Assembly: GCA_945918795.1 (NCBI GenBank)
Contig: CAMEIT010000014.1
Span: 1 to 46,434 of the forward strand
DNA length: 46,434 nt
Source of the DNA: an uncultured Clostridia bacterium
GTDB taxonomy: Bacteria; Bacillota; Clostridia; HGM11327
Direction: 5' to 3'
Shown here piece after piece: positions 19,111 to 23,011 of the stretch. The position numbers and the translations under genes are program-made. Numbering within the stretch: the first letter of the stretch is position 1; each line of letters starts with the position of its first letter. The notes below the pieces were generated by a model. That model was not told the DNA's origin. It saw only the letters and a list, made by a program, of their open reading frames with translations, and made no database searches.

Positions 19111-19185
19111 ATGTTGGAAAGTATAGTGACGATACTTACCTTGATTTTAATTCCGGAAATTTTTCGGGAAATTAAAAGAAAATAA
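19111..19185 (+). CDS. 24-aa hydrophobic peptide, candidate small membrane or type I toxin-like protein
   Basis: ATG at 19111 is preceded at 4-nt spacing by GGGGGT and by its own promoter. The 24 codons give a hydrophobic core (IVTILTLILIP) and a basic tail (REIKRK), the composition of short membrane-acting peptides such as Firmicute holin-like or TxpA-like toxins. The stop codon is embedded in a long hairpin (19180-19216), as is common in type I toxin mRNAs. I saw no convincing antisense promoter, so an antitoxin RNA is not demonstrated. The ORF is too short for coding statistics to help. Confidence 0.45.
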   Translation: MLESIVTILTLILIPEIFREIKRK

Positions 19186-19325: not shown

Positions 19326-19354
19326 TTGACAAAACTAATAATATGTGCTATAAT
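19326..19354 (+). promoter_or_regulatory. Consensus promoter of the metY-cysK leader transcript
   Basis: TTGACA (19326-19331), 17-nt spacer, TATAAT (19349-19354) with an extended TGTGC just before the -10. It starts transcription about 40 nt before the Cys-Cys leader ORF and 190 nt before metY. Confidence 0.75.
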
Positions 19355-19360
19355 CATACC

Positions 19361-19381
19361 AACCTACTGGATATGTAGGTT
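19361..19381. promoter_or_regulatory. Inverted repeat at the metY-cysK transcription start, candidate operator
   Basis: AACCTAC-N7-GTAGGTT, perfect 7-bp arms, lies 7 bp after the -10. A repressor bound here would block the promoter. Sulfur or cysteine regulators of the Rrf2 family are a reasonable guess, but no regulator gene is adjacent. Confidence 0.5.
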
Positions 19382-19401
19382 AATAAAGGAGGCGCTTATA
19401 T

Positions 19402-19476
19402 ATGGAGCATACGAAATTTTATTTTAATCGATGTTGTCTGTCTTTTTCTTTATTGTTGAACATTGACCGAATGTGA
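19402..19476 (+). CDS. 24-aa leader peptide with tandem cysteine codons upstream of metY-cysK
   Basis: ATG 19402 follows an AAAGGAGG site (19386-19393) at 8-nt spacing and the promoter at 19326. The ORF has 24 codons with TGT-TGT at 19432-19437 (context NRCCLSFS) and ends 73 bp before the metY start. Tandem codons for the amino acid made by the downstream genes are the hallmark of ribosome-mediated attenuation, and Cys-Cys leader peptides are known ahead of cysteine genes in mycobacteria. No clear intrinsic terminator is visible between 19477 and 19549, so the mechanism (Rho-dependent, or access to the metY ribosome binding site) is open. Confidence 0.6.
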   Translation: MEHTKFYFNRCCLSFSLLLNIDRM

Positions 19477-19549
19477 CTTTACAATTTACACGGAATTACA
19501 GTAGTTGTTTTTTGATATTCATTACATTAAAATAAAGGAGTAAATAATT

Positions 19550-20857
19550 ATGTCAGATATAAAGAATTCACAGAACTGGAGCTTTGAGACCAGACAGTTG
19601 CACATAGGACAGGAACAAGCAGATCCTACAACAGATGCTCGAGCAGTGCCGATTTATGCAAGCACATCATTCGTATTTCACAACAGTCAGCACGCGGCAG
19701 ACCGCTTTGGCTTGCGCGACGCAGGAAATATTTACGGCAGACTTACAAATCCTACACAGGATATTTTTGAACAGCGAATTGCTTCGCTTGAAGGCGGTGT
19801 TGCGGCACTTGCAACAGCTTCGGGTGCTGCGGCTATCAATTATGCGATAAGCGCTTTGGCATCAAGCGGAGAGCATATTGTTGCATCTAAGACTATATAC
19901 GGCGGAACGTATAATCTGTTGGCTCATACGCTTCCTCTTTCATCGGGTATCACCACAACTTTTGTTGACCCTTACATAGAAGGCTCTTTTGAAGCGGCTA
20001 TACAACCGAACACAAAGGCAATATTTGTTGAAACGCTCGGCAATCCGAACTCAAACATAATCGATATCGAGAAGTTGGCTGAGGTTGCCCATAAGCACTC
20101 AATACCGCTTGTTGTGGATTCCACATTTGCAACACCTTATCTTGTACGTCCTATTGAATACGGTGCGGATATAGTCGTTCATTCGGCTACAAAGTTCATA
20201 GGCGGACACGGCACGGCAATAGGCGGCGTTATAATTGATTCAGGCAAGTTTGATTGGAAAAAATCAGGCAAGTATCCATGGATATCCGAACCGAATCCGA
20301 GCTATCACGGCATTTCCTTTGCCGATGCTGTCGGTCCTGCGGCATTTGTAACTTACATACGTGCAATTCTGTTGCGTGATACAGGCTCTACTTTGTCACC
20401 TTTCCACGCGTTTATTTTCCTTCAGGGACTCGAAACGCTCTCACTGAGAGTTGAACGTCACGTTTATAACGCGCTGAAGATTGTTGAATATCTTAATTCA
20501 CATCCTCAGGTTGAGGCTGTTCATCATCCGTCCTTGCCGTCGGAACCGACGCACTATTTATACAATAAGTATCTGCCAAACGGCGGCGGCTCGATATTTA
20601 CATTTGAGATAAAGGGCGACGCCAAAACAGCACAGAAATTCATTGACAATCTTGCGATATTCTCATTGCTCGCAAACGTAGCCGATGTTAAGTCGCTCGT
20701 AATTCACCCTGCAAGCACAACACATTCACAGCTTACGGAAGAAGAGCTTTTGGACCAGGGAATAAAGCCGAATACGATACGCTTATCGATAGGCGTTGAA
20801 AATGTAAACGATTTGATTGCGGCTCTTGATGAAGCATTTGCCGCCGTAAAGGAATAA
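19550..20857 (+). CDS. metY: O-acetylhomoserine (thiol)-lyase, Cys/Met metabolism PLP enzyme
   Basis: The 435-aa enzyme of the Cys/Met PLP family condenses O-acetylhomoserine with sulfide to homocysteine. It starts with WSFETRQLHIGQEQADP, contains NIYGRLTNPTQDIFEQRIASLEGG (about 60-83) and GTYNLLAHTLP, and has the PLP lysine in VHSATKFIGGHGTAIGG (about 205-221). The length above 420 aa with long inserts separates it from cystathionine lyases and synthases (about 380 aa). The ribosome binding site is AAAGGAG at 8-9 nt. It is first in an operon with cysK, behind the Cys-codon leader. Confidence 0.93.
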   Translation: MSDIKNSQNWSFETRQLHIGQEQADPTTDARAVPIYASTSFVFHNSQHAADRFGLRDAGNIYGRLTNPTQDIFEQRIASLEGGVAALATASGAAAINYAISALASSGEHIVASKTIYGGTYNLLAHTLPLSSGITTTFVDPYIEGSFEAAIQPNTKAIFVETLGNPNSNIIDIEKLAEVAHKHSIPLVVDSTFATPYLVRPIEYGADIVVHSATKFIGGHGTAIGGVIIDSGKFDWKKSGKYPWISEPNPSYHGISFADAVGPAAFVTYIRAILLRDTGSTLSPFHAFIFLQGLETLSLRVERHVYNALKIVEYLNSHPQVEAVHHPSLPSEPTHYLYNKYLPNGGGSIFTFEIKGDAKTAQKFIDNLAIFSLLANVADVKSLVIHPASTTHSQLTEEELLDQGIKPNTIRLSIGVENVNDLIAALDEAFAAVKE

Positions 20858-20893: not shown

Positions 20894-21826
20894 ATGTCAA
20901 AAATTTATACATCAGCCGATTTACTTGTAGGCAAAACACCGTTACTTGAACTTACACATATTGAAAAAGAACTTGACCTTAAGGCAAAGGTTATTGCAAA
21001 GCTTGAATATTTTAATCCGGCAGGCTCCGTTAAGGACAGAATCGCAAAAGCGATGATAGACGACGCCGAGGAAAAAGGAATCCTTAAGCCAGGTTCTGTA
21101 ATAATCGAACCGACGTCTGGCAATACGGGAATAGGCCTCGCATCGATTGCGGCTGCCAAGGGATACCGCATTATTATAGTAATGCCTGAGACAATGTCAG
21201 TAGAACGTCGTCAGCTCATGAAGGCATACGGCGCAGAGCTTGTTCTCACGGAAGGCGCAAAGGGCATGAAGGGCGCAATAGCAAAGGCCGAGGAGCTTTC
21301 AAAGGAAATCCCGAACAGCTTTATTCCCGGACAGTTTGTAAATCCTGCAAACCCGGCAATTCACAGATCAACAACGGGTCCTGAAATATATGAGGATACA
21401 GATGGCAAGGTCGATATATTTGTTGCAGGTGTCGGAACAGGCGGCACTGTTACAGGCGTAGGCGAATATCTTAAGTCGCAAAACCCGAATGTGAAGGTTG
21501 TTGCGGTTGAGCCCGCTTCGTCACCGGTGCTTTCAACAGGCGTTGCAGGTCCGCATAAGATTCAGGGAATAGGTGCAGGCTTTGTTCCGGAAGTGCTCAA
21601 TACAAAAGTTTATGATGAGATTATTACTGTTGCAAACGAGGACGCTTTTGCAACGGGCAAGCTGATAGGCAAGAAGGAAGGCGTACTTGTCGGTATTTCA
21701 TCGGGCGCCGCAACATGGGCTGCAATAGAACTTGCAAAACGTCCTGAAAATGCAGGCAAGAACATAGTTGTTCTGCTGCCTGATACGGGTGATAGATATC
21801 TTTCCACACCATTATTTGCGGATTGA
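20894..21826 (+). CDS. cysK: Cysteine synthase A (O-acetylserine sulfhydrylase)
   Basis: The 310-aa fold-type II PLP enzyme makes cysteine from O-acetylserine and sulfide. The PLP lysine lies in [15 protein letters not shown] (about 40-54). The phosphate/substrate loop [16 protein letters not shown] (about 73) and glycine-rich [12 protein letters not shown] (about 178) are present, and the end [15 protein letters not shown] is typical. Ribosome binding site AAAGGAG. It lies 36 bp after metY, so sulfide assimilation into homocysteine and cysteine is co-expressed. Confidence 0.95.
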
Positions 21827-21849
21827 TTTGAAAATATAGTATGCGCTTG

Positions 21850-21878
21850 AGACAGAGCTGCCGTAAGCGGTTCTGTCT
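21850..21878 (+). other. Hairpin between cysK and mnmA
   Basis: AGACAGA (21850-21856) pairs with TCTGTCT (21872-21878), with additional inner pairs (CCG/CGG). It is followed by TATTGCGTTTT, a weak U-tract; it may attenuate readthrough into mnmA. Confidence 0.4.
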
Positions 21879-21925
21879 TATTGCGTTTTCAAGATAAAAT
21901 TTATTGCATATAAACGGTAAAAAAT

Positions 21926-23011
21926 ATGAAAGCACTGATTGCCATGAGCGGCGGCGTTGATTCCTCCGTTGCGGCTTATTTGATGATACAAAGAGGATAC
22001 ACCTGCATAGGATGCACAATGAAGCTTTACAATAACGAGGACGCCGGAATACCCAAAAGCCATACGTGCTGTTCGCTTGACGATGTGTACGATGCGAGAG
22101 CAGTTGCAAACAAGCTCGGGATACCATACTATGTATTTAATTTTTCAAACGATTTTCACGAGAAGATAATAGATAAATTCGTACATTGTTATCAAAACGG
22201 AATAACTCCGAATCCGTGCATCGACTGCAACAGGTATATGAAATTCGACAAGCTGTTTGAACGGGCGAAAATATTTGACTGCGGCTGCATTGCAACGGGT
22301 CATTATGCAAGAATAGAGTATGACGGCAAAAAATACGTGCTTAAAAAGGCTCTGGATGAGTCAAAGGATCAAAGCTATGTTTTATATTCAATGACGCAGA
22401 AACAGCTTGCAAGGACCGTATTTCCGCTTGGGGAAACACAAAAAACTCAGACGCGCAGAATAGCCGAGGAGAACGGATTCATTAATGCCGATAAGCCTGA
22501 CAGCCAGGATATTTGCTTTGTGCCCGATTCCGATTATGCAAAGGTAATAGAACTTCAGACGGGCAAAAAATCGCTGCCGGGTAATTTTGTGGATAAAAAC
22601 GGCAATGTACTCGGCACTCACAAGGGAATAATCCATTACACCATAGGACAGCGCAAGGGGCTCGGCATTTCATTTGATGAACCGCACTATGTTTGCGGAA
22701 TATGTCCCGAAGAGAATACCGTTGTACTCGGTAAGGAAGAAGAGCTTTATTCGACGACGCTTACGGCAGATGATTTCAACTGGATTTCGGGGGAGGCACC
22801 TGTGACCGGCATAAGGTGCAGTGCAAAGATACGTTACAGGCAAAAGGAACAGCCGGCAGCGGTAACGGTAAATGATGACGGGTCGGTAAAAATCGTTTTT
22901 GACGAGCCGCAAAGAGCAATAACTCCGGGGCAGGCGGTAGTATTATATGACGGCGACGTTGTGCTTGGCGGCGGAGTAATAAAAAGACAGAATGACTCAA
23001 AACGGCAGTAA
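21926..23011 (+). CDS. mnmA: tRNA-specific 2-thiouridylase MnmA
   Basis: The 361-aa enzyme introduces sulfur at U34 of Lys, Glu and Gln tRNAs. The PP-loop is MSGGVDSSVAAYLM (about 6-19). The two catalytic cysteines lie in NPCIDCNRYMKF (about 97) and SQDICFVPD (about 193), and GHYARIEYD (about 121) and the GIIHYTIGQRKGLGI segment (about 232) are conserved. Sulfur comes from cysteine through a desulfurase, which suits its place after cysK. The ribosome binding site is weak, and a hairpin separates it from cysK. Confidence 0.95.
   Translation: MKALIAMSGGVDSSVAAYLMIQRGYTCIGCTMKLYNNEDAGIPKSHTCCSLDDVYDARAVANKLGIPYYVFNFSNDFHEKIIDKFVHCYQNGITPNPCIDCNRYMKFDKLFERAKIFDCGCIATGHYARIEYDGKKYVLKKALDESKDQSYVLYSMTQKQLARTVFPLGETQKTQTRRIAEENGFINADKPDSQDICFVPDSDYAKVIELQTGKKSLPGNFVDKNGNVLGTHKGIIHYTIGQRKGLGISFDEPHYVCGICPEENTVVLGKEEELYSTTLTADDFNWISGEAPVTGIRCSAKIRYRQKEQPAAVTVNDDGSVKIVFDEPQRAITPGQAVVLYDGDVVLGGGVIKRQNDSKRQ

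Follow-up and report, generated by a model that had tools for sequence, protein, structure and literature searches.

A short open reading frame (ORF) ahead of metY and cysK in an uncultured Clostridia bacterium is very probably a conserved, translated leader of sulfur genes. The ORF lies in contig CAMEIT010000014.1, which was analysed from position 1 to 46,434 (the window), and it has the properties of a family of such leaders: a preceding Shine-Dalgarno (SD) sequence, an in-frame CGA-ATG usually at most 5 codons from the stop, and a sulfur gene downstream. A preliminary description of this DNA had picked out a true member of the family by its tandem cysteine codons, which are the variable part. 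Judged from the aligned sequences, the invariant element is CGA-ATG near the ORF end, which that description had overlooked, and not the Cys pair.

The leader ORF and its locus

The features of the locus are summarized in Table 1. The 24-codon ORF with its strong SD, the consensus promoter and the identities of both downstream genes were confirmed as previously proposed, and TGT-TGT was located at 19432-19437, in the middle of the ORF. About 40 nt separate the -10 region from the leader ATG. The palindrome between them is likely to be an operator for a transcription factor (a sulfur regulator), or it may form a hairpin at the 5' end of the mRNA.

Table 1. Features of the metY-cysK leader locus in the window
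Feature	Position	Strand	Evidence
Sigma-70 type promoter TTGACA-17-TATAAT, extended -10	19326-19354	+	12/12 consensus match, TG before -10
Palindrome AACCTAC-TGGATAT-GTAGGTT, directly 3' of -10	19361-19381	+	sequence
SD AAAGGAGG of leader ORF	19385-19392	+	sequence
Leader ORF, 24 codons, MEHTKFYFNRCCLSFSLLLNIDRM and stop	19402-19476	+	translation; gapless alignment to L009, L010, L014, L015, L018
CGA-TGT-TGT (Arg-Cys-Cys), proposed brake codon and Cys codons	19429-19437	+	CGA-before-Cys enrichment in leaders
Pyrimidine tract TTTTTCTTTATT, weak candidate anti-SD against metY SD region 19531-19539	19443-19454	+	
CGA-ATG-TGA (Arg-Met-stop), conserved family motif	19468-19476	+	CGAATG in 53/81 upstream regions
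Untranslated A/T-rich spacer between leader ORF and metY, terminator-free	19477-19549	+	
metY SD AAAGGAG	19534-19540	+	sequence
metY, O-acetylhomoserine sulfhydrylase	19550-20857	+	TIGR01326, 613.7 bits, E 1e-184
cysK, cysteine synthase A	20894-21826	+	TIGR01139, 461.5 bits, E 1e-138

The window contains 50 ORFs of 8-50 codons with a preceding SD, counting both strands. The leader ORF alone among them contains a Cys-Cys pair, and it is also the only one in which CGA is followed by a Cys or Met codon. A terminator-like hairpin was looked for in the spacer (19477-19549) and is absent; the Rfam search of the window gave zero family matches, and the T-box covariance model (RF00230) did not match the window at the gathering threshold or at a relaxed one. 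The earlier statement that this locus is not a classical attenuator therefore holds.

Two other units were observed nearby. Past a terminator-like hairpin (21848-21880) 3' of cysK lies mnmA (tRNA 2-thiouridine synthase; 21926-23011, plus strand). Upstream of the promoter, at 19112-19184 (plus strand), an SD (AAAGGGGGTGAT) precedes an ORF (MLESIVTILTLILIPEIFREIKRK and stop) and then a hairpin (AATAACCGCTCC..AACGGTTATTT); this arrangement resembles a type I toxin unit of the small hydrophobic kind, and the Pfam search of the ORF gave no match.

The closest relatives of the window leader are the leaders of five loci (L009, L010, L014, L015 and L018), in which ISCTSFSVLLSLNRM aligns without gaps with RCCLSFSLLLNIDRM of the window. 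The 3' end, CGA-ATG plus TG, is kept in these relatives. Three of them (L009, L015 and L018) retain the second Cys, and the other two (L010 and L014) have Arg in its place; the first Cys occurs in none of the five and is unique to the window. Thus, conservation among relatives holds for the ORF and not for the Cys pair. A peptide search with the window leader in its own order and family found only the window itself. Four genomes of the order were covered, and only that of the window has such a metY with the leader; the other three have a metY homologue, but a distant one. With the pattern CGATGTTGY..CGAATGTG in 381 genomes of the class, the sole true leader was again that of the window. Within the window's own genome no second leader was found; other matches to SD-ATG-CGAATG are at the level of control patterns, and those inspected are not leaders.

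A leader family upstream of metY in Clostridia

A MetY scan of bacterial contigs gave 80 homologous loci with 73-91% identity, and the 260 nt upstream of metY were compared in 81 sequences including the window. Metagenome-assembled genomes, which bear unreliable names, are the source of most of these loci. The commonest 6-mer is CGAATG. It occurs in 53 of 81 sequences, the window among them; all 53 have it in frame within an SD-preceded short ORF of 10-49 codons. Counted over all CGAATG sites, frames +0, +1 and +2 hold 54, 0 and 1, respectively. In a control over all common 6-mers, the mean in-frame fraction is 0.11, against 1.00 for CGATGT and 0.98 for CGAATG. The SD is present in all 53 loci by construction of the scan. 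Since the leaders were gathered by the motif itself, the argument rests on the count of 53 of 81 and on the in-frame and synonymous-codon tests, and not on the fact that every member has the motif.

The conserved stretch comprises 8 nt, CGAATGTG, and its flanks carry at most 0.57 bit per position. Generally, the motif stands close to the end of the ORF: in 47 of 53 leaders 0-5 codons separate it from the stop, and in 21 leaders it adjoins the stop. Cys codons are common and not obligatory: 42 leaders contain Cys and 11 contain none. Short ORFs ahead of metY in related genomes, which the preliminary description had suggested looking for, are thus present at 53 of 81 loci, while the Cys-Cys named in that suggestion occurs in only 13 of 53. 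From its idea of translation-dependent Cys sensing, the translated leader tied to sulfur supply stands, and the tandem Cys as conserved core does not.

None of the leaders tried matched Pfam, NCBIfam or Rfam. In the MetY tree, genes with a leader are found on both sides of the deepest split, and gain and loss of the leader take 15 changes compared with 23.5 for shuffled labels, which suggests an old leader that was often lost. CGAATG is absent from 28 of 81 metY regions, and no known riboswitch was found ahead of leader-less metY in 20 loci. At leader-less metY genes of Lachnospiraceae (e.g., L034, L050, L053 and L055), another promoter type is seen, TATAACCGGGTATTTTTTTTGCGTATTGGACA, suggesting that another regulator replaced the leader there.

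Two single loci have peculiar sequences. The leader ahead of metY at L059 carries the motif duplicated in tandem (CGAATGTGC CGAATGTGC CGC TGA), with a peptide ending in KRMCRMCR before the stop, and the spacer between leader and metY at L030 contains GGTTCGAGTCCGGGTAGCACC, which resembles a tRNA 3' half.

CGA is fixed before Met in the motif and enriched before Cys elsewhere in the leaders

A search of SD-led upstream ORFs for Arg-Met, open to every Arg codon, gave 54 cases with CGA and one with CGG. By comparison, CGA accounts for only 1.9% of Arg codons (13 of 693) in the same metY genes. Outside the motif, CGA precedes Cys in 19 of 31 cases and the other Arg codons do so in 3 of 86 cases (p 4e-11); the difference persists after clustering to 40 groups (16 of 26 vs 1 of 55; p 2e-9). 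CGATGY in leaders is always in frame (19 of 19). The codon following CGA-ATG is TGA in 18 leaders, TGC in 18 and TGT in 7 (43 of 53 together), and never TGG. The nearly constant reading frame of CGAATG indicates that translation matters, and the fixation of CGA (54 of 55) indicates that the identity of the codon matters and not the peptide alone. Read in this way, the shared unit of the leaders is CGA plus a codon for a sulfur amino acid.

In the window's own genome, assembled to 95% completeness, tRNA-Arg genes with anticodons ACG, TCT and CCT were found, and none with TCG was among the tRNAs detected and typed. The most likely reader of CGA is therefore the ACG tRNA in its inosine-modified form (ICG), the only tRNA found that could decode this codon. 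In yeast, ribosomes are slowed or stalled where tRNA-Arg(ICG) decodes CGA by wobble, and the decoding step that follows a CGA in the P site is weakened (PMC6301793). By analogy, such slowing may also take place in Clostridia, and we slightly favor CGA as a functional brake in these leaders. If the brake is real, codon choice would have a specific role in a regulatory ORF, and one synonymous change should break the regulation.

Other genes downstream of the leaders

The pattern AGGAGG, ATG and then CGAATGTG, with the downstream gene unspecified, was searched in 391 genomes of the class, followed by a filter for in-frame short ORFs and inspection. Leaders were found ahead of metY (L093, L095, L106 and L107), a sulfate-binding protein gene with cysT after it (L115 and L182), an ABC cluster of the nitrate/sulfonate/taurine type that has a cystathionine-lyase-type gene close by (L104 and L181), and a lipoprotein gene of the MetQ/NlpA type (L180). 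One more leader, L174 (MYKKLFRYFLLFLRHNWRNGRMCNICMSDGGISYC), came from a search that started from sulfate-binding proteins; of the 27 genes of this kind, 2 carry the leader. The phylum-wide scan found zero leaders outside the class, its sole true one being in a genome of the same class (G087).

A few further in-frame short ORFs from the class scan (L101 and L112) are located within other genes or at a long distance from the next one and were regarded as chance matches. Other inspected phylum-wide matches are rpoA starts and further coding sequence, not leaders. At L181 (about 1110-1870; G128), the substrate-binding protein gene 3' of the leader reads in broken frames, which may reflect either a pseudogene or misassembly.

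The 8-nt in-frame signature offers a way to find sulfur-controlled genes that are unmarked by Pfam, NCBIfam and Rfam.

Proposed mechanism and alternative explanations

We propose that the leader acts in the metY-cysK mRNA as a sensor of sulfur amino acid supply, with CGA as the brake; for this model as a whole, which is drawn from sequence comparison, we consider the chances evenly balanced. The sensing units in the window leader would be CGA-TGT-TGT in the middle of the ORF and CGA-ATG just before its end. The inosine-adenine wobble at CGA would be slow in the handover to the following codon, so that ribosomes would dwell with CGA in the P site when Cys-tRNA or Met-tRNA is scarce. The held ribosome would raise metY-cysK expression by blocking premature termination, probably Rho-dependent, or decay of the spacer mRNA; in some relatives, it might keep the metY SD free.

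On charged tRNA as the signal, we lean neither way. Cys-tRNA alone cannot be the general signal because 11 of 53 leaders have no Cys codon, a lone Met codon is classically judged a weak sensor, and tRNA charging does not account for the 18 leaders in which CGA-ATG is immediately followed by the stop UGA. A broader reading, which we hold tentatively and think somewhat less probable, is that the leaders form a class of bacterial attenuator that would be new. In it, CGA, as an obligatory rare codon decoded by inosine-adenine wobble, would serve as a built-in brake, and one Met or Cys codon after it would suffice to report starvation for sulfur amino acids. The class would then be a Clostridia-wide switch of the sulfur regulon for metY and for sulfate, sulfonate and methionine uptake genes.

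The position of the motif at the ORF end (47 of 53 within 5 codons of the stop, 21 adjoining it), the Cys codon or UGA after it in 43 of 53 leaders with TGG never used, and recurrent hydrophobic/basic segments upstream (VLLSxNRM, NFRNGRM) would also fit an arrest peptide. In this case, a chain ending in Arg-Met would hold the ribosome at the next codon (Cys or UGA) on binding of a metabolite (candidates are Met, SAM, Cys and O-acetylserine), as in the models TnaC and SpeFL, and metY would be controlled via downstream termination. We consider this unlikely: Arg-Met is invariant, yet its Arg codon is CGA in 54 of 55, although a constraint on the peptide only would permit AGA, CGC and CGT, which are most of the Arg codons in metY. 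This speaks against a pure peptide effect, and the upstream peptide varies between groups with little conserved. The conservation of CGAATGTG at the nucleotide level, synonymous positions included, would also fit a binding site for a protein or small RNA, on RNA or DNA, that lies by chance inside an ORF with no regulatory role; a weak extra complementarity between motif and spacer (z 3.4; control segments up to 1.9) points the same way. However, all CGAATG sites but one and all 19 CGATGY sites are in frame 0 of an SD-preceded ORF, and TGN is conserved after the motif while TGG never occurs; we consider a binding site very unlikely. Control of the promoter by a repressor on the palindrome, with the leader ORF minor or vestigial, is very unlikely too. 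The palindrome directly follows the -10, and a crude scan found similar sites (ACCTA..ATAGGT-like, just 3' of the -10) in 20 of 53 leader loci, but leaders are also found under other promoter types, and an operator does not explain their conservation at the codon level. Both layers, operator and leader, can coexist.

How the leader is coupled to metY expression seems to differ within the family. In translation attenuation, sequence near the motif would mask the metY SD, and a ribosome on the leader would free it. Pairing of this kind exceeds shuffled sequences (p<0.05) in 11 of 49 leaders (e.g., L036, L012, L017, L026, L079 and L085), and a ribosome mask at the motif saves 2-4 kcal/mol of metY SD opening in several leaders. 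But the metY SD is accessible at most loci, and SD sequestration was rejected as a family-wide mechanism. In the window, the duplex of TTTTTCTTTATT with the metY SD (-7.2 kcal/mol) is no better than in shuffles (p 0.25), and opening of the SD costs 1.5 kcal/mol, or 1.2 with a stall at the motif. As the explanation of the leaders, masking is improbable, somewhat more so than the arrest peptide; it is probably one of several couplings in the family and not that of the window. The window 5' UTR also folds no better than shuffles (z +0.86), and conserved RNA structure or pairing between motif and spacer in the leader regions gave a weak signal, on which the proposed model does not draw.

With no terminator and the SD already open, the candidates left for the coupling in the window are Rho-dependent termination and mRNA stability. 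Rho is encoded. The spacer of the window, with 7 C and 6 G in 59 nt, is hardly C-rich and shows no obvious Rho site.

Comparison with known systems

TnaC and SpeFL are arrest peptides encoded by short leaders, with the decisive residues at the stop and often with Rho-dependent coupling. The leaders described here are likewise short with key residues at the stop, but differ in that no peptide is conserved beyond Arg-Met and that the Arg codon is fixed. As in a trp-type attenuator, an SD-led ORF with Cys and Met codons precedes metY-cysK; unlike in such an attenuator, the spacer contains no intrinsic terminator or competing antiterminator.

In clostridia, sulfur genes carry Cys T-box leaders, and a study of C. 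perfringens described Cys T-boxes and SAM riboswitches and considered that further cysteine-control mechanisms may exist in several species (PMC2940859). The CGA-ATG leader family would be one such additional mechanism in gut and rumen Clostridia. No earlier description of it was found in the open-access literature searched, in line with the preliminary description, which knew of no characterised clostridial case. T-boxes also sense tRNA charging to control sulfur genes, but they do so with a structured RNA that binds tRNA directly (PMC2940859); none is present at the window locus. A metY paralogue of the same genome (G000:C22) has a T-box upstream (L002, 2839-3069, minus strand; RF00230, 95.7 bits), and a similar T-box-like sequence is visible ahead of the gene at L004.

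The uORFC-8-2 motif of Rhodobacterales, an upstream ORF (uORF) with two tandem Cys codons ahead of cysS, shares the tandem Cys codons with the window leader, but its RNA is structured and includes an intrinsic terminator, and the enzyme under its control is Cys-tRNA synthetase (PMC8632094). Cys leader peptides were also predicted in the Actinobacteria Mycobacterium, P. acnes and B. longum, with no conserved terminator, and Rho-dependent termination was suggested (PMC1262725). These candidates resemble the present leaders in having Cys codons near the stop and no terminator; they differ in phylum, in having Cys runs and not CGA-Met/Cys units, and in the cys or cbs operons downstream (PMC1262725).

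Mycobacterial Cys leaders have been detected by ribosome profiling (PMC4633059), and polycysteine leaderless uORFs of cysA2 and other genes respond to cysteine (Canestrari et al. 2020, as reported in PMC9031893 and PMC13236596). As far as these reports describe them, they are similar to the present leaders in the short upstream ORF with Cys codons, the sulfur genes downstream and the lack of an intrinsic terminator, and their signal, cysteine-dependent ribosome speed, is of the type proposed here. The window ORF has an SD and about 40 nt between -10 and ATG, and is thus not initiated as a leaderless ORF; its Cys pair is in the middle of the ORF, and 11 of 53 leaders of the family are Cys-free. 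On the same reports, the mycobacterial uORFs are leaderless with C-terminal Cys runs, whereas the clostridial leaders are SD-led and end in CGA-ATG followed by Cys or stop, with Cys optional and CGA fixed.
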